Shown here: positions 3,622-34,207 of the stretch, one piece after another
How the letters are laid out: each line of letters opens with the position of its first letter
Position numbering within the stretch: position 1 is the stretch's first letter
DNA from: Rhizobium sp. WSM4643
GTDB taxonomy: Bacteria; Pseudomonadota; Alphaproteobacteria; Rhizobiales; Rhizobiaceae
NCBI RefSeq assembly: GCF_025152745.1
Contig: NZ_CP104042.1
Coordinates: 1 to 64,000 of the forward strand
Direction of reading: 5' to 3'
DNA: 64,000 nt
Translations under genes and position numbers: made by a program
Notes under the pieces: model-generated
Seen by the model: only the letters and a program-made list of their open reading frames with translations
Database searches by the model: none
Told to the model about the DNA's origin: nothing

Positions 3622-3623
3622 AT

Positions 3624-11804: not shown

Positions 11805-11933
11805 ACGCTGACGATAACCGGCGGTTTAAGCCGGCGATCCCCGATCCTGCCCTGGCAGCCCAATTTCGTTCCTCCGCCCTTCGGCAGGACGCTGGGTTCC
11901 CCTGTTCTTTCCTCACTCTTGGAGCATCCTTCG

Positions 11934-16310: not shown

Positions 16311-16323
16311 TGGAGGCCTGCCC

Positions 16324-18693: not shown

Positions 18694-18766
18694 GCGCCGC
18701 TTTCCTGAATATATGGAAAACATGGAGAAGATGGATTATATGGAAACTGAAGTGGAGATGATAGCG

Positions 18767-19027: not shown

Positions 19028-19436
19028 ATTCCACCCCGGCGAGGTCATCTCCTATCCCTACCTATGGTCCTGGCAGCAGCAGCGCGGGGAAACCGAGGGC
19101 CGTAAGCAGCGCCCCGTCTGCGTCGTGATCGCCATCCGCAATGCCGCCGACGGAAACACGCACCTTGCCCTTCTCGCCATCACCACCCAACCGCCGCAGA
19201 CGGGCCGGATCGCTCTGGAGATCCCGGAGATCGAGCGCAAGCGTGCGGGCTTAAGCGATCTGAAGCAGTGCTGGATCATGGTCGACGAATACAACTACGA
19301 TATCGTCGAGCGCTCCTGGTACATTGAGCCCGATCAGGACATCCTCGGCCGCTTCAGCAAGTCCTTCATGGTGAAGATCGCCAGACTGTTTGCCGAGGCG
19401 CGCGGCCGAACCGGCCGGGTCAACCGCCTCGACTGA
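19017..19436 (+). CDS. PemK/MazF-like toxin of type II TA pair
   Basis: A 139-aa protein overlapping the antitoxin gene by 11 bases. It begins EFHPGEVISYPYLWSWQQQ and has KQRPVCVVIAI, matching the start of PemK/MazF-type proteins (G-x-V...RP.vVi). These are usually mRNA endonucleases. The middle and end (SDLKQCWIMVDEYNYDIVE, ILGRFSKSFMVKI) also follow the fold. Assignment to the PemK-like group is by eye; a related RNA-targeting toxin is an alternative. The pair probably stabilises the replicon. Confidence 0.7.
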   Translation: MSREFHPGEVISYPYLWSWQQQRGETEGRKQRPVCVVIAIRNAADGNTHLALLAITTQPPQTGRIALEIPEIERKRAGLSDLKQCWIMVDEYNYDIVERSWYIEPDQDILGRFSKSFMVKIARLFAEARGRTGRVNRLD

Positions 19437-19902
19437 GACTTGCCGCATCCCCGCCGGGCGGTGGGGCGACATCCCTTGAAATCACGTCTGTCACTCGATT
19501 GCGCTCTGCAGAACTGCAGTCGCGTCACGGAAGACCGAGGATTCGGGCCTCACGCCACCGAAGGCCATCTTTGACGATGAGGATGGGATCGGGACTGTGC
19601 CGATCTCTCGCGATGTGCCCGACTGGTTGACGGCCAGCGTGTGTTGACCCGAACACCACCAACGCATGTCACGAGCGCGGCACTCCGCGCGGCAGCAAAC
19701 GGGCGCCACGGCGAGGTCTCCTGACGACGTCGCAATCAAGGACCATTCCCGTTCTTTATGTCGCCTTTCTAAGGGACCGGCCGCGATTAGCGTCAACCCC
19801 GCAAGGGGGTTTCCCTTCGCTACGCTGCGGTGACGCCTGCGGCGCAGCCCCTTCTTCGGGCGCCATCGGGAATGGTCCCGATGCAACGAAGGAGACAATC
19901 CC
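19437..19902. other. Spacer with two hairpins before DUF736 gene
   Basis: No gene is seen. A terminator-like AACCCC / GGGGTT stem lies at 19795-19811, and a perfect 8-base stem with a 4-base loop (CATCGGGA / TCCCGATG) lies at 19864-19883, just before the ribosome-binding site of the DUF736 gene. Confidence 0.5.
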
Positions 19903-20226
19903 ATGGCTACCACGATCGCAACCCTCACCGAAAAGACCGACGGCACTCTCGAAGGCGTCTTCGCCACCATCCGGGTCAACGCCCCAATCGCCCTCGTCCC
20001 GAACGCCAGCAAGGCGAGCGAAGAAGCCCCGGACTACCGCATCATCCATCGCAAGACGGGCTTTGAGATCGGCGCGGCCTGGAACCGCATCTCCCGCCAG
20101 ACCGGCGAGGAATACATCTCTACGAAGCTCGAAGCGCCCGAGATCGGCGTGATCTTCGGCAACGTCGCCCCGGCGCCCGGCGGCGAGCCCGGCAAGAAGG
20201 TCATCCTCTGGAACAGCCCTGCCTGA
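19903..20226 (+). CDS. DUF736 family protein
   Basis: A 107-aa protein with the DUF736 pattern: an N-terminal GTLEGVFATIRVNAPIALVP, then YRIIHRKTGFEIGAAW and a late EYISTKLEAPE segment. DUF736 proteins are small, widespread on alphaproteobacterial plasmids and integrative elements, and uncharacterised. GAAGGAGA precedes the ATG. The gene is flanked on both sides by hairpins, so it may be an independent transcript. Confidence 0.85.
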   Translation: MATTIATLTEKTDGTLEGVFATIRVNAPIALVPNASKASEEAPDYRIIHRKTGFEIGAAWNRISRQTGEEYISTKLEAPEIGVIFGNVAPAPGGEPGKKVILWNSPA

Positions 20227-20234
20227 ACCGGACC

Positions 20235-20258
20235 GCCGGCCCCGAAATCGGGGCCGGC
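20235..20258 (+). terminator. Intercistronic hairpin D
   Basis: A very stable GC stem of up to 11 bases (GCCGGCCCCGA / TCGGGGCCGGC) with almost no loop lies eight bases after the DUF736 stop. There is no U-run, so it could be a terminator or an RNA-stabilising element. Confidence 0.55.
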
Positions 20259-20282
20259 CTCCCCGTTCCAAAGGAGGCCGCC

Positions 20283-20615
20283 ATGAGCCGCTACACAATT
20301 ACCGTCACCAGGACCGCATCCCGCCACTCCGACCCGGATGCCATTATCGGCTACGACCGCCCGCTTCAGACGTTCTTCCTCCAGGCATTTCCGGACGCAG
20401 GTGGCGAGGATCTTGAACTCTGGCTTGGCACAGACATGGGGGAGTTCGAAACACTGTCGCAACTGCGTACCGCAGCAATCGCACGCGGTTTCGACTTCAT
20501 ACCCTTGGCATCCGGCATTCTTCACAAGCTGCTGGACGACCATGCCCGCGAAGCGCATGACGCGGTCAGCGACACGATCATCCAGGATCTTCTCAACGGA
20601 ACATCCGCCCTCTGA
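20283..20615 (+). CDS. Conserved plasmid protein of unknown function
   Basis: A 110-aa protein beginning MSRYTITVTRTASR, with DAIIGYDRPLQTFFLQAFP and a helical C-terminus (ILHKLLDDHAREAHDAV). AAAGGAGG precedes the ATG. It follows DUF736 in the same orientation and is closed by a strong terminator. No known domain is recognised. Confidence 0.7.
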   Translation: MSRYTITVTRTASRHSDPDAIIGYDRPLQTFFLQAFPDAGGEDLELWLGTDMGEFETLSQLRTAAIARGFDFIPLASGILHKLLDDHAREAHDAVSDTIIQDLLNGTSAL

Positions 20616-20630
20616 CGCAAACCCAAAACG

Positions 20631-20663
20631 AAAATAGCCCGCCACGGCGCCGGGCTATTTTTT
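20631..20663. terminator. Bidirectional terminator
   Basis: The 11-base arms AAAATAGCCCG / CGGGCTATTTT with a 9-base loop give an A-run on one side and a T-run on the other. It serves the plus-strand gene ending at 20615 and the HU gene ending at 20679. Confidence 0.85.
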
Positions 20664-20678
20664 GCTTGGCTGACAAGA

Positions 20679-20957
20679 TTACTTGTTCAGCGCATCCTTC
20701 AATGCCTTCGCCGGCGTAAAGGCTAGCTTTCTGGCCGCGGCAACCTTGATCGTCGCGCCGGTCGACGGGTTACGAGCCTCGCGCTCCGGCGTTTCCTTCA
20801 CCTTGAACTTGCCGAAGCCGGGGAGGGAGGTCTCGTTGCCAGCCACCGCGGCTTCGGTGATGGACGCGATCACCGCTTCGACGATCGCCTTTCCCTGGGC
20901 CTTGGTGAGGCTGTGTTCGCCGGCGATCTTGTCGGCGATTTCATTCGTGGTGGTCAT
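20679..20957 (-). CDS. HU-family DNA-binding protein
   Basis: A 92-aa histone-like protein: TTNEIADKIAGEHSLTKAQG at the start, LPGFGKFKVKETPERE with the beta-arm, RNPSTG before the tip and AARKLAFTPAKALKD at the end. It bends DNA and could assist replication, partition or transfer at the plasmid level. GGAGAATTGAC precedes the ATG at 20957. An in-frame ATG exists at 20975 but lacks a ribosome-binding site. Confidence 0.95.
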   Translation of the reverse strand: MTTTNEIADKIAGEHSLTKAQGKAIVEAVIASITEAAVAGNETSLPGFGKFKVKETPEREARNPSTGATIKVAAARKLAFTPAKALKDALNK

Positions 20958-21103
20958 GTCAATTCTCCGCATCAACGTTAATGCGAGAATCCCTGACAGG
21001 GGATCAAAGCGCTGTCATCGACGCACCGCGTCAAGATCAACGATTTGCCCATTTTTCCACAACTACCAAGGACTTTGAGGCATCTCCGTGGGTCTGCATG
21101 GTG

Positions 21104-21138
21104 GATCCGCAAGCGGGCATCGAGCCCGCTTGCGGATC
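21104..21138. repeat. Perfect 15-base inverted repeat
   Basis: The arms GATCCGCAAGCGGGC and GCCCGCTTGCGGATC are separated by 5 bases. It lies in the gene-free region between HU and the small ORF at 21373, with no U-run. It could be a terminator, a protein-binding site or an RNA structure. Confidence 0.6.
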
Positions 21139-21204
21139 TCTGGTGCCATACCTGAGGAAATGTCTGCTCAGTCCCTCCGAGGGTGTCATGGGGGCATGAC
21201 GGCC

Positions 21205-21316
21205 TCAAGGACGAGCGGTGCCCCCAATTTTGCCTCCGCTCCGGTTCCCTGCACTCCGACAAAATCGGCACCCCCACTCGCCGCCGCTGGCGGTCGCGTT
21301 CCGCGATCCCTGACCC
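21205..21316 (+). repeat. Duplicated leader, copy 1
   Basis: This segment of about 112 bases, upstream of the small gene at 21373, is imperfectly repeated at 22352-22465, again just upstream of a small plasmid gene. The best-conserved part is the last 45 bases, with a GCCGCCGCTGGCGGTCGCG core and CGATCCCTGACCCC at the end. It could be a shared promoter/leader, or a decayed coding sequence copied with it. Confidence 0.65.
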
Positions 21317-21372
21317 CGCCACGCCCCCCATGACCGCGCGCGTCGTCTTTCACAAACGTCAAGGAGACGACG

Positions 21373-21537
21373 ATGGTTCTGGAACAACACATTGAAGAGC
21401 TTCGCCTCGAACTGCGCGAAGCAATCGACCCCGTCGAGCGCCGCGAGATCGAAATCGAACTGGAGCTGGCTCGCGCCGAGCTGGCGGTGATCACCGCAGA
21501 GCAGGAGGGCGCAATTGACGCCGAGCCACCCTTCTGA
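21373..21537 (+). CDS. Small charged helical protein, 54 aa
   Basis: A short ORF with a strong ribosome-binding site (AAGGAGACGACG) and a plausible protein: EELRLELREAIDPVERREIE followed by ELELARAELAVI. It should form one long amphipathic helix or helical hairpin. It is preceded by copy 1 of the duplicated leader. No function can be assigned. Confidence 0.6.
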   Translation: MVLEQHIEELRLELREAIDPVERREIEIELELARAELAVITAEQEGAIDAEPPF

Positions 21538-21735
21538 GGGTGGCTTTCGCCATGTCGCCTGGCCTGACGCGCCGGATCGACCGGCGCTTCAGGCCAGCTT
21601 CGCTCGCCATCGGCAGGTGCCAGAACTTGCGGAGGCTCTTGCGGGAAGGGCGGAAGCGATGGGATACCCCAACTCCTGTTTCGCTCCCATGCCATCGACA
21701 TGATGATGGCATCCGCCTCCACGGCACTTCCTTCG

Positions 21736-22011
21736 CTATCGATCACCCGATGCATCTTGCCGTATATGCGGTTTCGGCCTGTATCCGCGTGACCGTCTCT
21801 TTCGCAAAAGTTGGAGGAAGAGCCTGACCGCCTCTTCCTCCCGCGCGAAATGATGCTCCCGCCTTTGACCTCTTGCGCCGATACGACCCCATCGACGGAT
21901 GAGACAGGCCTCGCCGAACAGGTTGGGCTCGATCGACATGGCATAGTAGCGGGCCATGTTTTTCGAAGCGTCGGTGCGTTCGACATAGAGCTGGTAGCGT
22001 TGCGCAATCAT
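21736..22011 (-). CDS. WGR-domain protein
   Basis: A 91-aa protein consisting almost only of a WGR domain: YQLYVERTDASKNMARYYAM, then the signature RRWGRIGARGQ and an end with EEAVRLFLQLLRKRRSRGY. WGR domains occur in PARPs and in bacterial proteins linked to nucleic acids and are thought to bind them. The stand-alone form is common on rhizobial plasmids. It is encoded opposite to its neighbours. Confidence 0.85.
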   Translation of the reverse strand: MIAQRYQLYVERTDASKNMARYYAMSIEPNLFGEACLIRRWGRIGARGQRREHHFAREEEAVRLFLQLLRKRRSRGYRPKPHIRQDASGDR

Positions 22012-22517
22012 GGCACGGAGAATCGAGCAAGGCGGTCTCGGCGTCCAACGACATATTTGAATCGGTCGGTCTCGATTGATTCATGGCGGTGATGGGTTGT
22101 CGGCGGATGATCCGGGCGAGCCGCCTGCGGCGGACGGTGCTATTCGCCGTCGCTCACGGAGCCCGCAAAACGGTCTCCGCCCATTCGGGTCACGCCCCTC
22201 TCGCGGTTGTCGCATCGGCGGCGGGAATGTTTCACGCCGACGGCCGATGATAGGCTGCATGGCCGGCTGCGCTCGGCAAACGGACACGGCGCCTGGCGGC
22301 GCCGTGGTCTATCTCTCTCTGACGTCCCATTGTGCACCCGCCACTCCGGCGTCAAGGACTGCGCGGCCCCTCCAATTTTCAGTCGCCGTCCCTTCGGGCC
22401 ATCACCAGAAAATCGGTTCCTCCGCTTGCCGCCGCTGGCGGTCGCGGTCTGCGATCCCTGACCCCTCGCGGCTACGGTGCGGGCTCCTTTCGTCAGAGAC
22501 AGAAAGGAGACACTACA
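22012..22517. other. Gene-free region with hairpin and leader copy 2
   Basis: No gene is recognised in these 506 bases. A perfect 9-base stem (CACGGCGCC / GGCGCCGTG) with a 4-base loop lies at 22285-22306. The right part contains copy 2 of the duplicated leader. Confidence 0.5.
22352..22465 (+). repeat. Duplicated leader, copy 2
   Basis: This is the partner of the segment at 21205-21316, about 114 bases long, placed in the same way about 50 bases before a ribosome-binding site (AAAGGAGA) and small plasmid gene. Confidence 0.65.
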
Positions 22518-23003
22518 ATGTCCGATGACTGGTACTACGTCCATCAGCTCGCAGTGCTTGCGGGCTTCAGGCTCACCCTGCTTGCAAATCGCATGAGTTG
22601 CGAGGATGAATTCCTATTGGAACTGAATGACAGGCTCATCGAAGGACTGGCATGTGCAATTGCGCGGGTGCAATCCATCACGGCACTGGAGCGCCAGCTT
22701 GCCAACGAGCCCGACGAGGGAGGCCTCGCCGCTTTCCAGCTTCACGGCGAAGAGGAGTGCTTTGCGCGTTTCCGGATCACCTTGCTCGACGAGCTCGAAA
22801 TGGACTTCGACACCCACGAGTACCGTGTGAACCGCGGCGAATGGCACTATGCGCTTTCTGCTGACTGCGACGGCGTCAAGATTAACTATCCGAGGCTTGT
22901 CGCCCTCACCGACGCCGAGTTGGGCACGCTCGCCCCGATCGTCCGCGCCATCCGGAGCGAGGTGGGCATCGGTATCAATGTCGCACGCGCCGTCTACGAT
23001 TGA
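22518..23003 (+). CDS. Conserved plasmid protein of unknown function
   Basis: A 161-aa acidic protein: DDWYYVHQLAVLAGFRLTLL at the start and a helical middle with EEECFARFRITLLDELEMDF. The start at 22518 follows AGAAAGGAGACACTACA. It is followed at once by a 13-base hairpin (23010-23039). No known domain is seen. It is the last gene of the plasmid set before the repeat-rich region. Confidence 0.65.
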   Translation: MSDDWYYVHQLAVLAGFRLTLLANRMSCEDEFLLELNDRLIEGLACAIARVQSITALERQLANEPDEGGLAAFQLHGEEECFARFRITLLDELEMDFDTHEYRVNRGEWHYALSADCDGVKINYPRLVALTDAELGTLAPIVRAIRSEVGIGINVARAVYD

Positions 23004-23009
23004 TGCGCC

Positions 23010-23039
23010 GGTGAGAGACGGACGTGTCCGTCTCTCACC
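23010..23039. repeat. Perfect 13-base hairpin
   Basis: The arms GGTGAGAGACGGA / TCCGTCTCTCACC with the 4-base loop CGTG start seven bases after a stop codon. This could be a terminator, although no U-run follows. It is the first of a series of inverted repeats up to 23557. Confidence 0.65.
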
Positions 23040-23086
23040 TCTTCCGCTGGTTTGACCGCTTGCGGGCGTCGAGCCTGCGCGCGGTC

Positions 23087-23139
23087 TTGAGGGGAGAGAC
23101 TTGCCGCCTCTCCCCTCAATCTCCCCTCAATCTCCCCTC
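23087..23139. repeat. 12-base hairpin joined to an 11-base tandem repeat
   Basis: The arms TTGAGGGGAGAG (23087) and CTCTCCCCTCAA (23108) form a perfect hairpin. The right arm continues into almost three tandem copies of TCTCCCCTCAA (23109-23139). Confidence 0.6.
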
Positions 23140-23149
23140 TCCCTGCGGT

Positions 23150-23182
23150 GCGGGTCGAGACCCGCCCGGCCTTTAGGGCCGG
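23150..23182. repeat. Two adjacent short hairpins
   Basis: GCGGGTC / GACCCGC (23150-23165) is followed immediately by CCGGCC / GGCCGG with a 5-base loop (23166-23182). The stems touch one another. Confidence 0.5.
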
Positions 23183-23218
23183 TCAAGCGGACGCTGCCGC
23201 GACTTCCCCAAACAAGAC

Positions 23219-23286
23219 GGAGAGGACGTGCACCTTGCGCTGCGCCCTCATGCTTCGGGCATCCGCTCCAGGTGCACGTCCTCTCC
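23219..23286. repeat. 17-base perfect inverted repeat
   Basis: The arms GGAGAGGACGTGCACCT (23219) and AGGTGCACGTCCTCTCC (23270) are separated by 34 bases. No coding sequence is apparent. Confidence 0.7.
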
Positions 23287-23385
23287 TGCGGTGCGCTCGC
23301 CGTCTCATCGTTCGCCTGCCATCGATGCCCGCTCCCTTCGGTCACGGACTTCCCGGCAGCTCACGACGACGGCTCGCTTCAGCAT

Positions 23386-23522
23386 CTCAACCAACCGGGC
23401 TGGCCACCGCGCTGTTCCTCCGGCGCGGATCATAGGCCACGAGCCTGTGATCGCTGTTGCTTTGTCTGACGACTCGAAACCGCATGGCGCGTCGGGCACG
23501 GTGGCCAGCCCGGTTGGTTGAG
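23386..23522. repeat. 24-base perfect inverted repeat
   Basis: The arms at 23386-23409 and 23499-23522 are exact reverse complements over 24 bases (left arm begins CTCAACCAACCGGGC). The spacer is 89 bases. The length suggests a selected cis-acting site or the ends of a small mobile unit. Confidence 0.75.
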
Positions 23523-23535
23523 AGATGGCAGGATA

Positions 23536-23557
23536 GGCTAACGGTATACCGTTAGCC
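23536..23557. repeat. 22-base perfect palindrome
   Basis: The half site GGCTAACGGTA is followed directly by its reverse complement, 13 bases after the 24-base repeat. It looks like an operator or partition-type site for a dimeric protein. Confidence 0.7.
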
Positions 23558-24080
23558 GTTTCGCCCGAGGGGCGATTGCCGAGACGGGTAATGCCCGAAT
23601 CCCTCCCCGCTTATTCGCAAGTGGAGGGTCTTCCCGGGTATGGACTTGGTAGAGGTCGTTCGGCGGCAGAAAGAGGCACCTCCTCACGGCGCCACCTTGA
23701 ATCGCTGGTCGGTGAATCGGCGGACGGGCAATTCCCCCGCTTCGCCAATCGGTCAATGAGAGATCCGGCGTTCTCGCGTTTCGGCGGTTGGGCTGGTCGG
23801 TGGAGCAGCGAATAGGTTCGTCAGCGATTGTGCGACTGGCATAATAGGCGAGGGAGTGCTTCGCCAACTCCGCGCATCGGCGAACCGGCGATCGCGTTTA
23901 TTACTCATCGACGATTTCGGCGAATAGGTGGTTGAGCAAATCGGCGTTTTGCAGATTGGGAGTATGAACCGATAGGTGATTTCGCGAATCCGAAGTTCGG
24001 CGATTGCGCTGATGAGCGATCTTGCGAATGAACGTCGAGGCTGCTTTTAGCGGGGAGGCTCTTACCTGCCATTTGCCAAC
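23558..24080. other. GCGAAT/GCGATT-rich non-coding stretch
   Basis: Exact GCGAAT occurs at 23808, 23930, 23984 and 24024, and GCGATT at 23572, 23824 and 24000, often within longer similar contexts such as GCGAATAGGT (twice). No credible gene is present. This could be a degenerate iteron-like array. Confidence 0.4.
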
Positions 24081-24089
24081 GTAAGCCGC

Positions 24090-24360
24090 CAGTCCATCGG
24101 GCATTCCGTTGGCAACCGTCTGCTTGAGAAATTGCAGGAAAGCTGTCAGCCGAGCGCTGAGCAGACGTCGCGACGGATAGAGCGCCGACGCACGCCGAGA
24201 ATCTCGAGTCGGCCCGACTTGTCCGGCTGACCCACCCAGCACCTGCCGATCGGCTGGAATAGGCGGGGATACCAACGCTCGGATCAATTCTGTTACCTGC
24301 AAAAGGTAGGGGCCTTTTTGTGAAAGTTGGGAGCTCCCAACTTCTTCCTGACAACGCTTC
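24090..24360 (-). pseudogene. LysR-type regulator relic
   Basis: On the minus strand a frame around 24110-24300 reads PPIPADRQVL and then ALYPSRRLLSARLTAFLQFL, a strong match by eye to the C-terminal end of LysR effector domains (YPSRRHLSPRVRAFIDFL type). Upstream only scattered LysR-like fragments remain (for example LGAPNFHKKAP in another frame). No intact HTH-plus-effector gene is present, so this looks like a decayed remnant. Confidence 0.45.
24324..24343. repeat. 20-base perfect palindrome
   Basis: AAGTTGGGAG is followed directly by CTCCCAACTT. It lies in gene-poor DNA next to the LysR relic. Related CCCCAACTTCTT recurs near 24519. Confidence 0.5.
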
Positions 24361-24890
24361 GAACGACTGTGCCAGATGACCGGGAATTGCCACGCGTCCA
24401 GCGTGGTACTGCCAGCCATCGCCCGTCTTTGCGGACCGGCCCGCCTGGAAGGCCTCCAGATCCCGGCTGCGCGCGGCGGCTACCGACCGTCAGCCCTACC
24501 ATGCAAGAACGCGTCTTCCCCCAACTTCTTTTGACGTGGCGGCTCAACGCACATCTGTCCATGATCGAAACTTCGCGCTTATGCGTTGATGCGGCGTGTC
24601 CAGTGAAGTCGGGGGAGGTTGGCTTTATACGACGTGACGTTCGGTATGTTTGCAGCGCGCCGGCTGGGCGCTACAGGGCCGTGGCTACCGATCATGATCA
24701 ACTAAACGGTGAGAGTGGTGGGTCACCGCATACGATTTCGAGCGCGTCCGGCTACAGGCTTACCATTCCGCATCAGCCCCCATCGACAGCATGCGGCATA
24801 GGCAGACTGCCGCGATGTTGCCAACGCAGCAAGTCGATCACTGGGAATGCGACCCCCGTAAGGGCGTTCGGCAAGAAGAAGACCTGACCA
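24361..24890. other. Gene-poor region right of the LysR relic
   Basis: Open frames on both strands exist but none shows a recognised domain or a good start. I treat the region as decayed DNA. Confidence 0.4.
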
Positions 24891-25331
24891 TCATACCACG
24901 CCCTTCTTAAGGATGAAGTTCCCATAGGCGCGCGATTCAGCCGTCTGGATGACTGCAAATGATCGCATCGCGATGGGATAGTATGCAAACCTCTCGACAG
25001 GTTGGCTCGCTATCGAACGCCCCTCTGCCTCACTGCAAACCGCGAGGACGTCTTTGTGTACGTCCAGCAACTCGCCTGGCGCATCGACGGCCTCCATGTG
25101 CATCAGAGGCGTTTTGATGAACGTGTCCAAGGGCATCATCTGAAGGATCCCGCGGACTGCAGTCGGTGCATCGACGCCCTCCAAGATGAGAAGCTTTCCG
25201 CTCGTGGTTTGGGTCGCCACACGAAAACCGGAGAAGTTTCGATCTACGATTGCCAGTTCGTCGCCATGACCCATGGAGGCCATGACCCACAACACGTCGG
25301 CCGTAATAAACGGCGGCACACCCTTCAGCAT
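24891..25331 (-). CDS. RbsD/FucU-family sugar mutarotase
   Basis: A 146-aa protein: MLKGVPPFITADVLWVMASM followed by GHGDELAIVDRNF, the hallmark of the RbsD/FucU family with its catalytic His. The end has RAYGNFILKKGVV, again typical. These cytoplasmic enzymes interconvert anomers (pyranase or L-fucose mutarotase) of sugars brought in by ABC importers. The gene is divergent from a LacI-ABC transporter operon and would be controlled with it. Which sugar is used is not clear. GGGAGGGAGATGCC precedes the start. Confidence 0.9.
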   Translation of the reverse strand: MLKGVPPFITADVLWVMASMGHGDELAIVDRNFSGFRVATQTTSGKLLILEGVDAPTAVRGILQMMPLDTFIKTPLMHMEAVDAPGELLDVHKDVLAVCSEAEGRSIASQPVERFAYYPIAMRSFAVIQTAESRAYGNFILKKGVV

Positions 25332-25393
25332 GGCATCTCCCTCCCAAGAGATTTCACCGACAAGAAGGATGAACGATTAGCAGAAAAAAGCGA

Positions 25394-25413
25394 TTGCGCA
25401 AACGTTTCGATGG
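25394..25413. promoter_or_regulatory. LacI/PurR-type operator
   Basis: GCGCAAACGTTTCGAT (25396-25411) matches the classic LacI-family operator form GCAAACGTTTNC, with AAACGTTT as its centre. It lies between the divergent mutarotase gene and the lacI-type gene and is the probable site of autoregulation and of control of both directions. Confidence 0.7.
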
Positions 25414-25529
25414 CGCTAGCGTGACGACATAGCGGATCCTGGGAGAGCCTCTGGAGGTTGGAATTCCGCTTGGGAGGATAGATTGAAAAACGTGTTTGTT
25501 GCGCTGCTGGCGAGAGCTGGAGTGCGCTC

Positions 25530-26528
25530 ATGACAACTATTTCCGAGGTGGCAAAGGCGGCTGGGGTCTCAGTCTCCACGGTTTCGCACGTTCTCAATAA
25601 GACGCGCTACGTCTCACCCGAGAAGGTCAAGCTCGTCATCGAGTCCGTGGAGGCAATCGGATACATCCCCAATACAGTCGCTCGCTCGCTCAAACTGTCA
25701 TCGACAGGCACTGTCGGCCTCGCGATTTCCGCGATTTCGAATCCTTACTTCAGTGACATCATCTGCGCGATTGAGGCCGAGTGTTCCAAACGAGGCTTAA
25801 TCGCGTTCCTCTGTGACACGCAGGATGATCCGATCCGGGAGCTGGAACTGATCCAGCATCTGCATCAGCGCCGCGTCGACGGGATTATACTTGCGCCTTC
25901 GGGCGATCCTAAAAAGGCGCTGGACTATCTCATCCGGTCCGACCTTCCCTGTGTGCTTGTTGACAGGCTGTCGGACAACCGTTTCGACCAAGTCGGGACG
26001 GATAACGTCGCCGCAATACGAATGCTCGTCGATCATCTCGTCACGCTGCATCATCGGCGGGTTGGGATCATTCTCGGTCAGCCCGGCTTTGCGACGACTG
26101 TGGAGCGCGCAAAGGCCTTCCGCACAGCGATGACGGAGAAGGGAATAGAGGTAGAGGATAATTTAATCAGCGACGGCAATCGCAGCACCGCCGACGCCAC
26201 CGCTTCGACGCACCGTTTGCTGGGGCTGAAGGAGCCGCCGACAGCGATTCTTGCTTCGAACAATCTGGCGATGATCGGGGCTATGAGAGCTATCCGAGAG
26301 CGGAAGCTGCGTGTTCCCGCGGACATTTCTGTCCTTGGGATCGATGATTTCGAATGGGCAGATTATTTCGAACCGCGCCTGACGCTGATGGCCCAGCCTT
26401 GCGATGAGATTGGCAGGAAGGCGGCGGACTTGCTGATCGAGCGGATCGGCAACAAGCGCCGCCCCCACGAGACCATTCGACTGTCGCCAGTTTTGCGAGT
26501 GCGTGAATCGTGTGGAGAAGCAGCATGA
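25530..26528 (+). CDS. LacI-family transcriptional repressor
   Basis: A 332-aa regulator with an N-terminal HTH (TISEVAKAAGVSVSTVSHVL, then the hinge helix region), followed by a periplasmic-binding-protein-like effector domain (VDGIILAPSGDPKKAL, RRVGIILGQPGFATTVERAK, ILASNNLAMIGAMRAIRE). It probably represses the adjacent sugar transporter and releases DNA when a sugar binds. TGGAG precedes the ATG. The stop overlaps the start of the ATPase gene by four bases, so repressor and transporter are one operon. Confidence 0.95.
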   Translation: MTTISEVAKAAGVSVSTVSHVLNKTRYVSPEKVKLVIESVEAIGYIPNTVARSLKLSSTGTVGLAISAISNPYFSDIICAIEAECSKRGLIAFLCDTQDDPIRELELIQHLHQRRVDGIILAPSGDPKKALDYLIRSDLPCVLVDRLSDNRFDQVGTDNVAAIRMLVDHLVTLHHRRVGIILGQPGFATTVERAKAFRTAMTEKGIEVEDNLISDGNRSTADATASTHRLLGLKEPPTAILASNNLAMIGAMRAIRERKLRVPADISVLGIDDFEWADYFEPRLTLMAQPCDEIGRKAADLLIERIGNKRRPHETIRLSPVLRVRESCGEAA

Positions 26529-28042
26529 GCCACGTCGTTCTTTCAGCGAAAGGTGCCGTCAAGCGCTTCGGCGGCGTCCAGGCGCTTCGCGGCGTGGATT
26601 TCGACCTAAAGGTTGGCGAAATCCATGCGCTGCTTGGTGAAAACGGTGCAGGAAAATCGACGCTGATAAACCTGCTGTCCGGTGTGAATACGCCGGACGA
26701 GGGAGAGATCTTCATCGACGGCAAACCGGCGCGATTTCACAGCCCGCGTGATGCACAAGCAGCCGGGATCGCAACGATCTTCCAGGAGCTGGACCTCGTT
26801 CCGAGCCTGACCGTGGCTGCCAATCTCTTCCTCGGGCGCGAACTTGTCCATCGGCACGGCATGCTCGATGGGAAGGCCATGCTGCAAGAGGCGCGTAAAA
26901 GACTAGAAGCGATCGACCGATCTATCGATCCCGCCCAGTTCGTGAGTGAGCTTTCCATCGGCCAGCGCCAGGTCGTCGCCATCGTCAAGGCGCTTTCCTA
27001 CGCATCGAGAGCCCTCATCATGGATGAGCCGACGGCTGCCTTGACTGTTGGCGAAGTGGATCGACTATTCGACATCATGCGTGGCCTGGCAGCGTCGGGC
27101 GTTGGCATCGTCTATATCTCGCACCGCCTTGAGGAAGTGCCGCAGATCGCTCATCGCGTTACGGTCATGCGCGACGGCAAGGTGGCTGGCGTCACCAAAC
27201 CAGATGCGCCGCAGGCCGAACTGGTGCAGCTTCTCGTTGGACGTCCTTTGAACGAGCTTTATCCCCGCCGCGCACCGAGTGTTGGTGACGTGCTCCTGCG
27301 GATGCGACAGGCTTCCTTCCGCCCGTACCGCGTGTCACCCGGGTGGCAGGCGCCAATCAAAGTCGATCTGGATGTTCGGCGTGGCGAAATCGTCGGGCTC
27401 GCCGGCGTTATGGGGGCGGGTCGAACCGAGCTTTTGAGCGCTCTATACGGAACAGGCGTGCCCGGCCAATGGCACGGGGACATTACGATTGGTGGCAGGC
27501 CGACCAGGCTTAAATCGATCGCGGCTGCTCGCAGGGCAGGACTGGCATTTGTAACTGATGACCGGCGTGGGGCCGGTCTCATGTTGCGTATGTCTGTAGG
27601 TCTCAATCTGGTGATGTCGATCATCCGCTGGATATCACCAAAGGGCTTGCTGTCGGCGCGGCGCCAGGAGGATGCGATCAAGAGCTCTTTCGGCCAATTC
27701 GACATTCGTCCAAAGAATCCCGGCATCGCGGTCGGGGCACTCTCTGGGGGCAATCAGCAGAAGGTCGTCCTCGCAAAGGAAGTGCTGGGCAATCCGCGCT
27801 TGTTGCTTCTCGACGAGCCGACACGTGGCGTCGACGTCGGCGCAAAGGGAGAAATCTATGCCCGCTTGCGCAAGCTGGCTTCAGAGGGATTGGGCATTCT
27901 TGTCGCTTCTAGCGAGATGCCCGAACTGATCGGCCTATGCGATCGCATAGTGGTTTTGCGCAACGGCAGCAGCGTTGCTGAGTTTTCTGGCGGCGTCGAC
28001 GAACACGAAGTCCTGGCGGCCGCCAACGGGAGGGAGGCCTGA
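26525..28042 (+). CDS. Sugar ABC transporter ATPase, RbsA/MglA type
   Basis: A 505-aa protein with two fused nucleotide-binding domains. The first has Walker A GENGAGKST, signature LSIGQRQ and Walker B ALIMDEPT. The second has the degenerate P-loop GVMGAGRTE, signature LSGGNQQK and LLLDEPTRGVDVG, the usual asymmetry of this family. It energises pentose/hexose import with the next two genes. ATG 26525 (ATGA overlap, GGAG upstream) is preferred over the in-frame GTG at 26510. Confidence 0.95.
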   Translation: MSHVVLSAKGAVKRFGGVQALRGVDFDLKVGEIHALLGENGAGKSTLINLLSGVNTPDEGEIFIDGKPARFHSPRDAQAAGIATIFQELDLVPSLTVAANLFLGRELVHRHGMLDGKAMLQEARKRLEAIDRSIDPAQFVSELSIGQRQVVAIVKALSYASRALIMDEPTAALTVGEVDRLFDIMRGLAASGVGIVYISHRLEEVPQIAHRVTVMRDGKVAGVTKPDAPQAELVQLLVGRPLNELYPRRAPSVGDVLLRMRQASFRPYRVSPGWQAPIKVDLDVRRGEIVGLAGVMGAGRTELLSALYGTGVPGQWHGDITIGGRPTRLKSIAAARRAGLAFVTDDRRGAGLMLRMSVGLNLVMSIIRWISPKGLLSARRQEDAIKSSFGQFDIRPKNPGIAVGALSGGNQQKVVLAKEVLGNPRLLLLDEPTRGVDVGAKGEIYARLRKLASEGLGILVASSEMPELIGLCDRIVVLRNGSSVAEFSGGVDEHEVLAAANGREA

Positions 28043-29085
28043 TGTCCGAACAGCAAATCGCATCCAATCCAGCGGTTCAGCCCGCCAAGCGGATTGATCC
28101 GCTCGCGGTGTTGGTCCGCTTCCAGAGCTTGATCGGCCTTATACTCGTTTTCGCTGGAGGCATCATTTTCTCACCGCGTCGGCACGGTGTCATTCTGTTC
28201 ATTCAACCCGACAACATCGCAAACATCGTCCGCGCGGTGTCCGAAACTGGCATCATTGCGATCGGAATGACGTTCGTGATCATCACCGCCGGGATTGATC
28301 TCTCGGTTGGGGCCACACTTGGTCTTGCGAGCGTCGTAACGGCAACATTGATGGTCTCAGGCGGTTTTGGGCTGGTCACGACGGTGCTGGCAGTGCTGCT
28401 GATGGGCACTTGTTTCGGGTTGGTCCAGGGAGCGATCTCAAGCAAGTTTCGGCTTGAAGCGTTTATCGTCACTCTTGCCGGCTTGCAGGCAGCCCGGGGG
28501 CTTGCACTCGTTGTGTCGGACAATCAGTACATCAATATTTCCTATGGTGATGGTCCTGGGCTTGCTCCACCCATCTTTGCCATTCTCGGCGGTCGGCTAT
28601 TCGGTAACGTCGTTCCCGTCGCCACGATCGTCTTCTTGATCTTTGCCTGCATCGCCACGCTCGCGCTGAACACGACGAGGTTCGGCCGTTACGTCTATGC
28701 CGTCGGCGGCAACGAGCGCGCAGCCCGCATCTCAGGTGTTCCGGTCTCGGCAATCAAGATCGCCGTTTACGCCATTACCGGCTTTGCATCCGCACTTGCT
28801 GGCATCGTCCATGCCGGACAATTCAATTTTGGGAGCGCCAATGATGGGACCGGATATGAATTGACGGCCATCGCGGCTGTCGTCATCGGAGGAACCAGCC
28901 TGTTTGGCGGGTCGGGTTCAATGGTCGGAACAATCGCCGGTACGATCATGCTCGGCGCTTTGGCCAATATACTGCAACTGAACAACATCACGCCCGCCAT
29001 GCAGTTGCTTGCGACAGCGGCAATTATCGTTCTGGCGGCAGTCCTTCAATCCCTCGTTCGTCGCCGCGAAGGATTGGGCAGGTAG
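28042..29085 (+). CDS. Sugar ABC transporter permease, RbsC type
   Basis: A 347-aa inner-membrane permease with about eight to ten hydrophobic segments and the family motifs GMTFVIITAGIDLSVGATLG and AVVIGGTSLFGGSGS. It forms the channel of the importer. The start codon overlaps the ATPase stop by one base (TGATG), so translation is probably coupled. The N-terminal 25 residues are cytoplasmic. Confidence 0.95.
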   Translation: MSEQQIASNPAVQPAKRIDPLAVLVRFQSLIGLILVFAGGIIFSPRRHGVILFIQPDNIANIVRAVSETGIIAIGMTFVIITAGIDLSVGATLGLASVVTATLMVSGGFGLVTTVLAVLLMGTCFGLVQGAISSKFRLEAFIVTLAGLQAARGLALVVSDNQYINISYGDGPGLAPPIFAILGGRLFGNVVPVATIVFLIFACIATLALNTTRFGRYVYAVGGNERAARISGVPVSAIKIAVYAITGFASALAGIVHAGQFNFGSANDGTGYELTAIAAVVIGGTSLFGGSGSMVGTIAGTIMLGALANILQLNNITPAMQLLATAAIIVLAAVLQSLVRRREGLGR

Positions 29086-29138
29086 TGTGGCGGCATCACC
29101 CGGAGGGTGGATCCGGGATCAATGTGGAGGAGAAAGTA

Positions 29139-30128
29139 ATGACACAGAATGCACTTCGAATGTGGCATGCCGGGCGCATGGCACTCCTGGCCGGCTCATG
29201 CCTTGCTATTGCCAGCGTGGCTCACGCTGCCGATCCGCTCGTGAAGGCTTGTGCCAAGGATGGCGAGTTCGTCATCGGCTTCTCGCAGGCCAACAATGCG
29301 GAGCCCTACCGCCAGCACGTCAACGATGAACTACAGGCCGCCGCCAAGGCAGTCCCGCAGTTCACACTGCAGATCGCTGACGGCGCGGGCAACGTCAACA
29401 CTCAGACATCGCAAGTCGACAATTTCATCACCCAAAAGGTTGACCTTCTGTTGATCTCGCCTTTCGAGGCGGCTCCGCTTACGCCCGCCGTCAAGCGGGC
29501 AATGGATGCGGGTATCCCGGTCGTCGAACTTGACCGCAAGACGAACGGTGAGGCTGGCAAGGACTATACAGCCTTCATCGGAGGAGATAACTACAAAATC
29601 GCGTTGGCCGCCGGCGAATATACGAGCAAGACGCTTCTGCCGGACGGCGGCGAGGCAGCCGTACTGCAGGGCCTGCCGAGTTCCACACCGGCCGTCGAAC
29701 GGCTGAATGGCTTCAAGGATGGCGTGAAATCCAATTCCAAGATCCAGATCGTGGCAGAACAAGCGGCAGACTGGTTGCCGGATAAAGCACAGACCGCGTT
29801 CGCTGCGATGCTGCAGGCTCATCCCGATATCAAGATGGTCTATGCCAGCAACGATATGATGGCGGCGGGTGCGCTGCTTGCCGCGAAAGGTGCCGGCAAG
29901 AGCGTGAAGATCATCGGCACTGATGGCTTGCCAGGTCCGGCAGGCGGGATCGAGGCAGTCGCAAAGGGCGACTGGTCCGCTACCTTCACATATCCGACAG
30001 GAGCCAAGGAGGCGGTCGATATGGCTAAGTCGATATTGCTGGACTGCGCATCGTCGGTGCCAGCAACAGTAACGGTCGATACCACCGCCATCACGCCCGA
30101 TAATGCGAAGCAGATGATGGGTAAGTAA
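29139..30128 (+). CDS. Sugar ABC transporter periplasmic binding protein, RbsB type
   Basis: A 329-aa protein with a signal peptide (hydrophobic stretch MALLAGSCLAIASVAHA, cleavage probably after AHA near residue 30). The mature part has the type I fold of RbsB-like proteins: FVIGFSQANNAEPYRQHV, DLLLISPFEAAPLTPAV, GIPVVELDRKT and KIIGTDGLPGPAGGIEAVAKG. The start at 29139 is set by GTGGAGGAGAAAGTA. The upstream ATG-less extension to 29085 is rejected. It defines the substrate of the operon, which I cannot name: residues suggest a small sugar. Confidence 0.95.
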   Translation: MTQNALRMWHAGRMALLAGSCLAIASVAHAADPLVKACAKDGEFVIGFSQANNAEPYRQHVNDELQAAAKAVPQFTLQIADGAGNVNTQTSQVDNFITQKVDLLLISPFEAAPLTPAVKRAMDAGIPVVELDRKTNGEAGKDYTAFIGGDNYKIALAAGEYTSKTLLPDGGEAAVLQGLPSSTPAVERLNGFKDGVKSNSKIQIVAEQAADWLPDKAQTAFAAMLQAHPDIKMVYASNDMMAAGALLAAKGAGKSVKIIGTDGLPGPAGGIEAVAKGDWSATFTYPTGAKEAVDMAKSILLDCASSVPATVTVDTTAITPDNAKQMMGK

Positions 30129-30138
30129 AGCTCCAGAC

Positions 30139-30174
30139 TCAACCCGGCCAGACGCGACTGTCCAGCCGGGTTGA
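30139..30174 (+). terminator. Hairpin after the sugar transporter operon
   Basis: Perfect 10-base arms (TCAACCCGGC / GCCGGGTTGA) begin 11 bases after the stop of the binding-protein gene. There is no U-run, so efficiency is uncertain. Confidence 0.6.
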
Positions 30175-30243
30175 ACCATACCAATTGGCTGGCGTGCCCG
30201 AACTCCTTCGCCGAGCGCATTCTTAAATAGCAGAAGACCCGCT

Positions 30244-30636
30244 TCAAGGCGCTATCGTGCTCGCGGCTGTATTGTTCAAAGAGTTTTTGACCTCTTCTGT
30301 TACAATGCCGGCGGCGTCCGACGCAAATCTGGCATTGATAGTCAGGGTTTTCCCAACCTCTTTCGCGTAATCGAAAGCCGCATCGCGGCAATAGTCGCTT
30401 ATTACATCGAAGGTATCATTGGTCTTTTGCGCTGCGATGATGTCGTCCATCAGCTTGATGTCGCGTTGAAAACGGTGCTGAAGAAACGATAGACCTTCCA
30501 CTTGATAGCGAAGCAATGCTTTCGCGATGCTTGTCGGCATCTTCAAGGCGGAATCGGCCAGTTTGTTGCTGTCGCTCAACGCCGGGAATAAAGCTGGCGG
30601 AAAGTCGAACCCCGATTTTGACGCTTGTTTTTGCAC
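30244..30636 (-). CDS. Phasin-family protein
   Basis: A 130-aa protein with the phasin core: YQVEGLSFLQHRFQRDIKLM, then DVISDYCRDAAFDYAKEVGK. Phasins coat polyhydroxybutyrate granules; rhizobia often carry several copies. The frame is open to 30777, but the GTG at 30636 is preceded by TAAGGAGA at good distance and is the better start. It stands alone between the sugar operon and the repC relic. Confidence 0.75.
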   Translation of the reverse strand: MQKQASKSGFDFPPALFPALSDSNKLADSALKMPTSIAKALLRYQVEGLSFLQHRFQRDIKLMDDIIAAQKTNDTFDVISDYCRDAAFDYAKEVGKTLTINARFASDAAGIVTEEVKNSLNNTAASTIAP

Positions 30637-31068
30637 GGCCTGTCTCCTTATTGCGTGAGATATTGTTTGATGCGCTGCAAAGGCGCGGATGATGGCAGCC
30701 GCGATGATAGCGGCGGAGCCAATTGGGAGCGCTCCGGCGGGGCTCGCAGCGATATTGCTGCACGCCCCGATAGCCAACGGCCGCCAAAGGCTGTCTAACG
30801 CAAGTTACGCGTGGTTGCGGCTCACTGACTTCCAAGAGACTTCCTTATGCATTGCTTCGGAAACTTGCATAGTTCTATCGTCCGTTGAACGGATGGAAGC
30901 TTATCGCGCCGAAATGAAAATCACTTTGATCGAGGTCAAAAGACCGTTCATCGACGCAATCGGCGCCTACATGATTATCGCGCCAGCTGCGTGCGAGTAT
31001 TCGCTGTGCATCCTTTGCAAGGCGAGCTTGGTCGGGCTTTATCATGAAACCCTGTTCGCCGTTGATGA
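30637..31068. other. Gene-poor region left of the repC relic
   Basis: No gene is recognised. A short minus-strand frame (about 30875-31046) has no detectable homology or ribosome-binding site. Confidence 0.4.
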
Positions 31069-31372
31069 GATTTGGTGAGCCGCGATCCATTGCCCTGAAG
31101 AATGCGAAGAAAATGTAAAACGAAAATGTGACGACGCCCTTCGGGCGGCGGCCGATGACACTTGGAAGCTTGGCTAGCCGGACGTCTGCCCGCAAAGTCG
31201 TGCACGGCCGACAAGTTCACAAGCTATCGTGCCCTGTGCGAGGCCAAGCGGCTGCTCGGCGCATCACCGACCCGAGCGCTGGCCATCTTGGCATGACTTG
31301 TTGAACTTTTATCCCACGGGAGAGCTCTCCGAGGAAACGGGCTTGTGGTGTTCCCTTCCAATGCACCGGTCG
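31069..31372 (+). pseudogene. Relic of a second repC gene
   Basis: The first quarter of a RepC protein is readable with several frame changes. ATG at 31113 is followed by a TAA codon, then VTTPFGRRPMTLGSLAS, then in another frame YRALCEAKRLLGASPTRAL, then LLNFYPTGELSEE and finally LVVFPSNAPV. GATTTGGTGAGCCG at 31069, 44 bases before the ATG, equals the same 14 bases at 2362, 45 bases before the intact repC. The wording (MTLGSLAS, YRALCEA, ELSEE.GLVVFPSNA) is nearer to the common RepC type than is the intact RepC in this window, so it comes from a different repABC lineage, not a recent copy. Confidence 0.85.
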
Positions 31373-31501
31373 ATAATCGACCAAGCCGGCACATGATAAA
31401 ACGCCGTGCCCTACAGTTGACGCGAAACGCTTTTTGACGATACGGCAAACGACGGCGGCGAATGCCGTATGGTCGATCGATGGGCGGAAGAACTTCGGAA
31501 T

Positions 31502-32068
31502 ATGGATTTGAAACGGGCGATGGATTTCTTCTTGGCCTTGATCGCGTCGGTGATCCTGCTTGTGCCAATCCTTATCGTCGCTCTTTGTGTTCGCCTTACC
31601 TCGCGGGGACCGATTCTTTATTGGTCAAAACGTGTCGGCCGTTTCAATCAGATCTTCCTGATGCCGAAATTTCGCAGCATGCGCGTCGACACACCAACGG
31701 TTGCCACACATTTGCTCGAAAACCCGGATCGGTTTCTGACACCCATCGGCTCGTTCCTGCGCAAATCCAGCCTCGACGAACTGCCGCAGCTCTGGTGCAT
31801 TCTCGAAGGGAAGATGAGTTTCGTCGGCCCGCGGCCGGCACTCTACAATCAATATGATCTGATAGAGCTGCGGACGGCCCATGGTGTCGACAAGCTGTTG
31901 CCTGGACTGACGGGATGGGCGCAGATCAACGGACGTGACGAATTGCCGATTCCGGAGAAGGTAAAATTCGATATCGAATATCTCGAACGTCGCTCCTTCG
32001 GCTTCGACATACGCATCCTGTTTAGGACTGCCGAGAAGGTCATCCGCCGTAAGGGAATAAGGCATTAA
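31502..32068 (+). CDS. Initiating bacterial sugar phosphate transferase
   Basis: A 188-aa polyprenyl-phosphate sugar-phosphate transferase: one N-terminal membrane helix (DFFLALIASVILLVPILIV), then KFRSMRVDT and the catalytic core SSLDELPQLWCILEGKMSFV followed by GPRP. It places the first sugar on the undecaprenyl carrier for O-antigen or exopolysaccharide. With the dehydratase downstream it resembles the plasmid-borne lps-beta pair of R. etli (initiating QuiNAc-1-P transferase and 4,6-dehydratase); that identification is from memory. ATG 31502 is chosen over 31469 because it begins the usual MDLKRAMDF. Confidence 0.9.
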   Translation: MDLKRAMDFFLALIASVILLVPILIVALCVRLTSRGPILYWSKRVGRFNQIFLMPKFRSMRVDTPTVATHLLENPDRFLTPIGSFLRKSSLDELPQLWCILEGKMSFVGPRPALYNQYDLIELRTAHGVDKLLPGLTGWAQINGRDELPIPEKVKFDIEYLERRSFGFDIRILFRTAEKVIRRKGIRH

Positions 32069-32191: not shown

Positions 32192-34207
32192 ATGCCCGAA
32201 AATACCCCCACTGAGACGCCGCGCTCAGGATGGTTCTTAATGCCGATGCAAGCGCTCGTCGCCCCTCTGCTGGCGATGCCGCGGGTTGCCAAACGTGCTC
32301 TGGCTTTGCTGGTGGATTCCAGCTTTTGTGTTCTGACGATCTGGCTGGCCTATTGTTTCCGCCTGAACGAATGGACGGTGCTGACCGGCGTGCAGTGGCT
32401 GCCGGTCTTCGTTTCGCTCTGTATGGCACTTCCCATCTTCATAGTCATGGGCATGTATCGGGCGATCTTCCGTTATGCCAATATGGCTGCTTTCATTACC
32501 GTTCTAAAGGCCATTGCGATCTACGGCGTCGCCTTCATGACGATATTTACCGCCCTCAGCGTTCCCGGCGTTCCCAGAACCGTCGGCATCCTCCAGCCCT
32601 TCCTTCTGTTGATTGCGATCGGCCTGTCGCGATTGGGTATCCGCTACTGGCTCGGCGATGCTTACCAGCGGATCCTTCACAAGAATATGCTCGCCAAGGT
32701 GCTGATCTATGGGGCAGGAACGGCCGGGCGGCAACTCGCCGGTGCCTTGATCAACAGTGCGGAACTCAATGTCGTCGGCTATCTGGATGATGATCCGCGT
32801 CTCAAGGGCGGGGTCATGGGTGGTTTGCCGATCTACGACCCCTCGGATCTTCCGGTGCTTGCCGAATCTCTCGGCGTGCACAACGTGCTGCTTGCTCTTC
32901 CATCAGCAACGCGGCAGCGTCGCAATGAAATCCTGGAGCATATCCGCAAAGCCAGGGTGAATGTTCGCACATTGCCCGATCTCACGGCCCTGGCTCAGGG
33001 GCGTGTCACCGTCTCCGACATCCGCGAGCTCGAGATCGAAGATCTGCTGGGAAGAGAAGCGGTCGCGCCGCGCCAGGAGCTACTCGACAAGTCGATGGGC
33101 AACAAGGTGGTGATGGTCACCGGTGCTGGCGGCTCGATCGGCGGCGAGTTATGTCGTCAGATTTTGCGCACCGGGCCTTCCAGCCTGATCCTCATCGATC
33201 AGAATGAGTTTGCGCTTTATAATATTCATGCCGAATTGCAGAAGCTGGCCGAGCTGTACAGACATGAAAATCTGCAGATCGTCCCAATCCTCTGTTCCGT
33301 CCGCGATCAGGATCGCATGGAACATGTCATGCAGAACTGGCGACCTCAGACGCTCTATCATGCCGCCGCTTACAAACATGTGCCGCTTGTCGAACACAAT
33401 GCCGTGGAAGGTATCAAGAACAATGTCATGGGTACGCTGGTCACGGCGCGCGCAGCGATTAAATGCGGCGTTTCGAATTTCGTGCTGATCAGCACAGACA
33501 AGGCCGTGCGTCCGACAAATGTGATGGGCGCCAGCAAGAGGCTGGCAGAGATGCTTCTGCAGGCGCTCGCAGCAGAACCGACGACCGACAGAATGCGAAC
33601 GAATTTTTCCATGGTCCGCTTCGGAAACGTCCTCGGCTCCTCCGGATCCGTCGTGCCGCTTTTCCGCCAGCAGATCAAGGAAGGCGGCCCCGTTACGCTG
33701 ACACATCCCGATATAACCCGCTATTTCATGACCATTTCGGAGGCCTCGCAGCTCGTCATCCAGGCCGGCGCCATGGCTGACGGCGGCGATGTTTTCCTGC
33801 TCGACATGGGCGAGCCCGTTCGCATCGCAGATCTCGCCCGCAAGATGGTCGAGCTTTCCGGATTGACGGTCCGCGACGAGAACAATCTCGAAGGGGATAT
33901 CGAGCTTTCCGTTACAGGTCTTAGGCCCGGCGAGAAGCTTTACGAAGAACTGTTGATCGGGGATAATCCTGAAACAACCGAACATCCTCGGATCATGAAG
34001 GCGCGTGAGGATTTCTTGTCCTGGCCGGAGCTGTCGAAAAGGCTGAACTCGCTCAACGCCGCACTGGACCGGAACGATATGATCGCTGCACGCGCAACGT
34101 TGGCGGAGCTTGTTTCCGGCTATTCGTCAACGGGTGAGGTCTCGGATATGGCTTTCGCCGGCGCCGAGCCAATACGTCTGCCTCAGACAATTCAAAGAAC
34201 GCTGTAA
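32192..34207 (+). CDS. Membrane-anchored NDP-sugar 4,6-dehydratase (WbpM/CapD type)
   Basis: A 671-aa protein with four N-terminal membrane helices (about residues 30-150), a first nucleotide-binding domain (VLIYGAGTAGRQLAGAL) and a C-terminal short-chain-type dehydratase domain: GAGGSIGGELCRQIL, AAYKHVPLVE, ISTDKAVRPTNVMGASKR, with the Met/Lys pair in place of Tyr-x-x-x-Lys. Such enzymes make 4-keto-6-deoxy sugars from UDP-GlcNAc, the first step to QuiNAc and similar O-antigen sugars. It follows the sugar transferase by 123 bases in the same direction. Confidence 0.92.
   Translation: MPENTPTETPRSGWFLMPMQALVAPLLAMPRVAKRALALLVDSSFCVLTIWLAYCFRLNEWTVLTGVQWLPVFVSLCMALPIFIVMGMYRAIFRYANMAAFITVLKAIAIYGVAFMTIFTALSVPGVPRTVGILQPFLLLIAIGLSRLGIRYWLGDAYQRILHKNMLAKVLIYGAGTAGRQLAGALINSAELNVVGYLDDDPRLKGGVMGGLPIYDPSDLPVLAESLGVHNVLLALPSATRQRRNEILEHIRKARVNVRTLPDLTALAQGRVTVSDIRELEIEDLLGREAVAPRQELLDKSMGNKVVMVTGAGGSIGGELCRQILRTGPSSLILIDQNEFALYNIHAELQKLAELYRHENLQIVPILCSVRDQDRMEHVMQNWRPQTLYHAAAYKHVPLVEHNAVEGIKNNVMGTLVTARAAIKCGVSNFVLISTDKAVRPTNVMGASKRLAEMLLQALAAEPTTDRMRTNFSMVRFGNVLGSSGSVVPLFRQQIKEGGPVTLTHPDITRYFMTISEASQLVIQAGAMADGGDVFLLDMGEPVRIADLARKMVELSGLTVRDENNLEGDIELSVTGLRPGEKLYEELLIGDNPETTEHPRIMKAREDFLSWPELSKRLNSLNAALDRNDMIAARATLAELVSGYSSTGEVSDMAFAGAEPIRLPQTIQRTL

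Follow-up and report, generated by a model that had tools for sequence, protein, structure and literature searches.

Why does a replicon that begins with an intact repABC locus also carry the start of a second, broken repC at 31069-31372? We have analyzed the first 64,000 nucleotides (hereafter the window) of contig NZ_CP104042.1 of the root-nodule bacterium Rhizobium sp. WSM4643, a host contig of 548,967 bases designated here as C3 that holds the window at its head. From the sequence of the window alone, the initial annotation had described a decayed second repC from another repABC lineage and proposed that the replicon arose by cointegration of two repABC plasmids, or replaced its replication genes. 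The features considered below are collected in Table 1.

Table 1. Replication-related features and their neighbors in the window. R1 and R2 denote the repABC types of p42b/pPR13E03 and of WSM1274 pWSM1274_4, respectively.
Feature	Position	Strand	Basis
Backbone head, collinear with R. indicum pPR13E04 (91.5%)	1..24188	+	Plasmid alignment
Intact repA (1-1212), repB (1194-2252) and repC (2407-3621)	1..3621	+	Gene calls
ctRNA (RF00489) of the intact repABC	2256..2302	-	Rfam
S-element (RF00490), contains the 14-base motif	2343..2409	+	Rfam
parS-consensus palindrome just 3' of the intact repC, also in pPR13E04	3628..3643		Palindrome scan
Second scar, remnant of the R2 repA-repB spacer	24250..24403	-	WSM1274 1473-1316, 87%
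Orphan parS palindrome, GTTGGGAGCTCCCAAC	24326..24341		Identical to both sites in the live R2 locus
Sugar ABC transporter region with FucU (the latter on the - strand)	24464..30216	+	Adjoins R2 repA in WSM1274
Small hypothetical gene and decayed CBS-domain gene, between fucose operon and relic	30235..30985	-	Intact and oppositely oriented in TP23, where the relatives lie at the other end of the R1 block
repC relic of R1 (p42b/pPR13E03) type, covering about the first 87 codons and the preceding end of the S-element region	31069..31372	+	Alignment, RP-C match, shuffles
Leader before the sugar transferase	31373..31499	+	Homologous to the repC-sugar transferase spacer of R1 plasmids
Sugar transferase (Bac_transf), first gene of the polysaccharide block	31469..32068	+	Located after repC in R1 plasmids; start annotated 33 bases further downstream in the relatives
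Nucleoside-diphosphate sugar epimerase/dehydratase, same block	32192..34207	+	Annotation comparison

The identification of the relic as a decayed repC was borne out by profile, alignment and shuffling data. In a six-frame search of the genome, the Pfam RP-C profile (PF03428) matched it above the curated cut-off (E 1.2e-5, one stop), with the match being partial (model positions 24-77 of 175). The best match among the 72,556 plasmid records searched had an E value of 3e-76, and over about 300 bases the relic reached up to 82% identity with the first part of repC from R. leguminosarum-group plasmids. Its local score against R1 repC was 331, compared with a maximum of 27 among 200 dinucleotide shuffles. 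Three-frame translation of 31041-31480 revealed the peptides VTTPFGRRPMTL, YRALCEAKRLLG, LLNFYPTGELSEE and LVVFPSNA in order and spread over three frames, with the ATG-TAA (31113-31118) located upstream of them, in agreement with what had been read initially. The RepC homology spanned 31069/31070 to about 31366-31372. The relic has a stop at codon 2 and five small indels, and the remainder of repC is absent: no complete repC frame (about 400-430 codons, with the C-terminal region RP-C_C, PF11800) was found at this place, and nothing past about codon 87. Judging from these defects, the relic is a pseudogene that would give no working RepC. A full repABC locus (repA and repB upstream, with ctRNA and S-element) was likewise not found at the relic, where the Rfam search gave no ctRNA or S-element at the gathering threshold.

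The 14-base motif GATTTGGTGAGCCG had been noted 44-45 bases before the ATG of both the relic and the intact repC. It indeed occurs twice in the window, at 2362 and 31069 (0.04 occurrences expected at up to one mismatch), at 45 and 44 bases from the respective ATG. The 2362 copy sits within the S-element, and R1 repC genes carry most of the motif too. Being part of a known repABC element, the motif marks repABC loci generally and provides no specific tie between the two copies.

We have then compared the relic with other repC genes. In the alignment of the repC 5' region, it was 84% identical to the genes of pPR13E03 and Vaf-108 and 79% to those of BT03 and p42b. Identity fell to 62-65% for the genes of WSM1274, TP23 and the host contigs C2 and C4, and to 56% for SRDI969 repC and the intact repC of the window. 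The R1 repC clade, including the relic, received a bootstrap value of 99; the position of the relic within the clade was weak (58), and its branch was long (0.18 vs. 0.012-0.014 for pPR13E03 and Vaf-108), as would be expected under free decay. Ta1k aligned poorly in this set (branch 2.6), and its row was given no weight. On this comparison, the relic belongs to the R1 repC clade, a lineage other than that of the window's intact repC. The proposal that, of the two genes, the relic is the nearer to the common form of RepC also held: its identity to the repC of C2, C4 and TP23 is 63-65%, against 56% to the window's own repC.

Intact repABC loci of the R1 clade lie directly before the same polysaccharide block in R. 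indicum pPR13E03, BT03 pRspBT03b and R. etli p42b. The order after repC (sugar transferase, nucleoside-sugar epimerase, O-antigen ligase, DUF2934 or small gene, GntR, uxuA) is the same in pSRDI969_2, the sister plasmid of the window's replicon, and in Vaf-108 about 8 kb are inserted between repC and the block. The joint of repC end and sugar transferase from pPR13E03 was found at 80% or more, in one place, in 20 of 1134 matching records, with 18 of the 20 annotated as repC plus sugar transferase, one otherwise and one unannotated. Since living R1 plasmids have an intact repABC just before the same block, the relic is best seen as the in-place remains of the block's own replication locus. This supports the earlier suggestion that the polysaccharide locus beside the relic came from the second plasmid. 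Thus, p42b and pPR13E03 share with the window the repC clade and the polysaccharide block directly after it, but their repABC is intact and alone, whereas the window keeps only the start of repC, inside a larger replicon. The block is present without the relic in WSM1274, Ta1k and pRL9.

The repC end/sugar transferase joint was also seen at CP007068.1 661897-662882 and NZ_CP054028.1 1564822-1565800, where the annotation is hypothetical or lacking, and these replicons (1.56 and 1.61 Mb) may hold further fused R1 loci. An RP-C match that reached model position 127 in CP050566 and CP140857 was discounted, the stretch being homologous to the repC-sugar transferase spacer, and a profile search of genome contigs, which returned chiefly unrelated sugar transferases, was not used.

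The similarity to R1 plasmids extended far beyond the polysaccharide block. C3 31070-204834 was collinear with pPR13E03 in a single orientation, with the larger pieces at 86-94%. In pPR13E03, the match begins 43 bases before the repC start and stops in the interval that separates repA from the regulator gene upstream of it. The R1 block in TP23 pRlX1 extends, at its far end, to about 300 bases short of repA. This collinearity, running from the repC edge round to near repA, indicates that the R1 plasmid in C3 was opened at its repABC, with loss of repA and repB. A simple picture is opposed by the coverage of only 67% of pPR13E03, and by the 187-217 kb part of that plasmid, which lies elsewhere in C3, inverted and more diverged (78-86%).

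The module of hypothetical and CBS-domain genes occurs at both ends of the R1 block in inverted orientation, decayed in the window (30235-30985) and intact in TP23 (CP140857.1 548368-549474). This inverted pair counts against a simple fusion picture. A frame at 30689-31078, annotated as a hypothetical protein in SRDI969, is antisense to the decayed CBS gene and runs into the first bases of the relic; it is probably no gene.

The initial annotation had suggested a search for repA/repB debris further along the replicon. No such debris of R1 type was found on C3 (E up to 1e-3, best match per 1.5 kb), where only its own repABC was matched. A second scar, absent from that annotation, was nevertheless present at 24250-24403 and belongs to a third repABC type, R2, beside the intact one and R1. 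Its reading as repA debris was dropped, as the WSM1274 gene table places the stretch in the repA-repB spacer. The palindrome at 24326 is perfect, fits the parS consensus GTTNNNNGCNNNNAAC of repABC systems (PMC9040568) and equals both sites in the WSM1274 repA-repB spacer; elsewhere in the host genome, no second copy was detected, even with one mismatch allowed.

From 24406 onward, C3 corresponds to sequence from the far side of WSM1274 repA, and C3 258698-258733 derives from downstream of WSM1274 repC. Between these joints, C3 24464-258702 covers 92% of pWSM1274_4 in three main pieces of about 97% identity, with the live repABC of that plasmid (28-4003) being again the opening point. In pSRDI969_2, the stretch 24098-276025 forms one chain over pWSM1274_4 252466 to 4185 (95.8%), spanning all of that plasmid save the repABC neighborhood. 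A second plasmid that is present, collinear and opened at one point, as a cointegrate would contain, was accordingly found for both pWSM1274_4 (92%) and pPR13E03 (67%). Like C3, pWSM1274_4 has the R1 backbone, and its live R2 repABC is of the type that is the source of C3's parS scar; unlike C3, it is a free plasmid (253 kb) and lacks the R1 repC relic.

Inverted 28-base ends stand about 1.15 kb apart at C3 258729-259885, with more copies in pPR13E04, which suggests an insertion sequence in the right-hand joint. The filler sequences at 24189-24249 and 30986-31068 matched the plasmids compared over no more than 16-26 bases, apart from the sister plasmid, and have no source among them. No free plasmid that has only the R2 locus was found. 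Ta1k pRL4 (CP090111.1) was considered as the free source of the R2 segment; over its full length, it has the parts in another order and another repABC, so that it is at most a possible source. This plasmid has the same 16-base palindrome as the orphan parS at 35193, 181 bases past the end of the R1 backbone match, with flanks that otherwise fail to align. Its only RP-C matches carry a stop (69176-69687), and at the end of a collinear block (202654-202734) lies a RepC C-terminal stub of 27 residues, 67% identical to R1 RepC, perhaps a further fossil.

The head of the present replicon would be of a different origin. The first 3.7 kb are 98.9% identical to pPR13E04, and the match ends at 24188, at a joint that bears the parS debris. 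pPR13E04 is matched over only 31% and leaves most of C3 258.7-546 kb unaccounted for, so that just the head of the outer partner has been recognized. In strain JKLM 13E, pPR13E03 and pPR13E04 are two separate plasmids.

Both scars, with the same joints, are found in pSRDI969_2 (NZ_CP104037.1), whose relic is identical in 303 of 304 bases. Since the joints recur in this independently sequenced sister, they are not an assembly error. The two plasmids differ in their repABC, and chained coverage between them is 61%. At the same site, window 1-3621 and NZ_CP104037.1 1-3607 are 70% identical, with non-homologous DNA at 3.6-7.1 kb and about 96% identity from 7 kb onward. As far as this comparison tells, the repABC at the replicon head has been exchanged between the sisters.

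Other carriers were identified as well. Among the matches listed, at least 13 records (629-682 kb, under the name R. ruizarguesonis or R. leguminosarum) have the leader together with the 3' part of the R1 relic. The R2 scar was present in 15 records, namely the same 13 together with pSRDI969_2 and WSM1274. CP050566 and CP140857 lack about 830 bases that correspond to the window's small genes and the 5' half of the relic. In CP050566 and NZLR24, the parS scar is on the DUF2277 (repC) side with an R2 repC stub, repB and most of repC being deleted, whereas in C3 and pSRDI969_2 it is on the FucU (repA) side. The simplest reading is that, in the 13 records, the same composite was fused on a separate occasion, into a conjugative plasmid of 629-682 kb; a single opening with different subsequent losses would be a less simple alternative. 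A sample of 60 related genomes contained no complete relic; its 3' part with the leader was present in one of them (G011).

Taken together, these data make a nested fusion the probable history of C3, with an R1 plasmid opened by an R2-bearing segment and the composite then fused to a backbone with a pPR13E04-like head. An R1 plasmid would have been joined at its repABC by a segment carrying the R2 repABC, which would have taken over replication and left the R1 repC to decay freely. The composite type would survive, without the relic, as pWSM1274_4; because that plasmid lacks the relic, the composite that was fused must have been a relative still bearing it. This composite, relic included, would then have fused with the plasmid of pPR13E04-like head and been opened inside the losing repABC, leaving the orphan parS at 24326 and yielding C3 and its sister pSRDI969_2. 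The R1 joint would be the older one, as the R1 relic lies inside the R2 block, and the large forms would be later than the small ones, because the loci broken in the former are intact in the latter. The fusion first proposed is hence supported in a refined form of at least two steps, with the pPR13E04-like backbone ending at 24188 and not at the relic. Both of its suggested variants apply, plasmid material having been joined and the head repABC differing between sisters.

Exchange of repABC in place, with successive cassettes entering into or beside the old locus and the relic as a leftover, would need no plasmid fusion. It would fit the divergent repABC of C3 and pSRDI969_2 (70%) at one site in similar surroundings, as well as the different repABC that Ta1k has between the same neighbors, FucU and DUF2277. 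A cassette swap would, however, keep the flanks adjacent, whereas in C3 the R1 repABC flanks are 174 kb apart and the R2 flanks 234 kb, at opposite block ends; we therefore consider such an exchange, taken as the whole explanation, improbable. The reverse direction, in which an old large plasmid gave rise to small ones that split off and acquired a repABC, draws on the fact that shared content alone gives no direction, and a 2025 study of related plasmids left fusion versus fission open in the part concerned (PMC12691615). What makes fission very improbable here is that the large forms hold broken pieces (R1 repC, R2 spacer, repC end and downstream pieces) at the very block ends, and that these are whole in the small forms.

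The shortness of the relic could also be explained by transfer of a repC-polysaccharide fragment only, with no plasmid involved. This was already disfavored by the collinearity with pPR13E03, which extends over 174 kb, as far as the opposite flank of the repABC in that plasmid, and we give such a transfer hardly any credence. Even less credible is that the relic arose by duplication and decay of the replicon's own repC, or that the likeness is due to chance: the 14-base motif and 73 of 97 bases are shared with the own repC, yet over the whole relic the identity is 56% to it vs. 84% to R1 repC, which already refuted a duplicate, and the shuffle control (27 vs. 331) speaks against chance.

In the nested fusion that we favor, both openings fall within a repABC locus. 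A random opening there would have a chance of about 1.5% for R1 and 2.0% for R2, with the R1 case having been found through its relic and not being an unbiased one for such an estimate. In our view, the most likely cause is that fusions breaking one of two replication loci last. Rather doubtful is the wider idea that, since such fusions would outlast others, the losing repABC is the usual opening place of fused rhizobial plasmids, and that the orphan parS might still bind RepB of the swallowed type and so shut its ancestor out. The direction and mechanism of fusion, as well as any function that the orphan parS may have, are thus offered as an interpretation of the debris.

Events of this kind are already known in rhizobia, C3 being a well-preserved example. 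Crossman et al. (2008) proposed that repABC loci were shuffled among plasmids of R. etli and R. leguminosarum, with p42b and pRL9 as a pair (PMC2434198), and a fused megaplasmid has been described in R. anhuiense (PMC13240570). Martelella pMM259 (PMC5613091) and S. fredii pSfr64a (PMC3224233) are likewise replicons assembled from repABC plasmids. For pMM259, the loss of one module was foreseen (PMC5613091), whereas in C3 the loss has already happened, with debris marking two successive joints. The type III plasmids of R. leguminosarum gsE resemble C3 in having the content of two plasmids in one and a repABC group common to neither; they differ in that the passages on them leave fusion or fission, and hence the direction, open (PMC12691615). 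The passages of PMC11837538 that name the pSRDI969 plasmids do not mention fusion. We found no prior description of the present case in literature coverage that takes in few of the subscription journals. C3 contributes the nested scars and the direction that they give.

The losing repABC leaves debris at the joints from which direction and order can be read; the work on type III plasmids, in the part cited, could not tell fusion from splitting (PMC12691615). Screening of joints for repC stubs and orphan parS sites could make such cases testable over many genomes. Rhizobial plasmids are commonly classed by repABC type, and the case of C3 shows that type and gene content can part more than once in a single plasmid.
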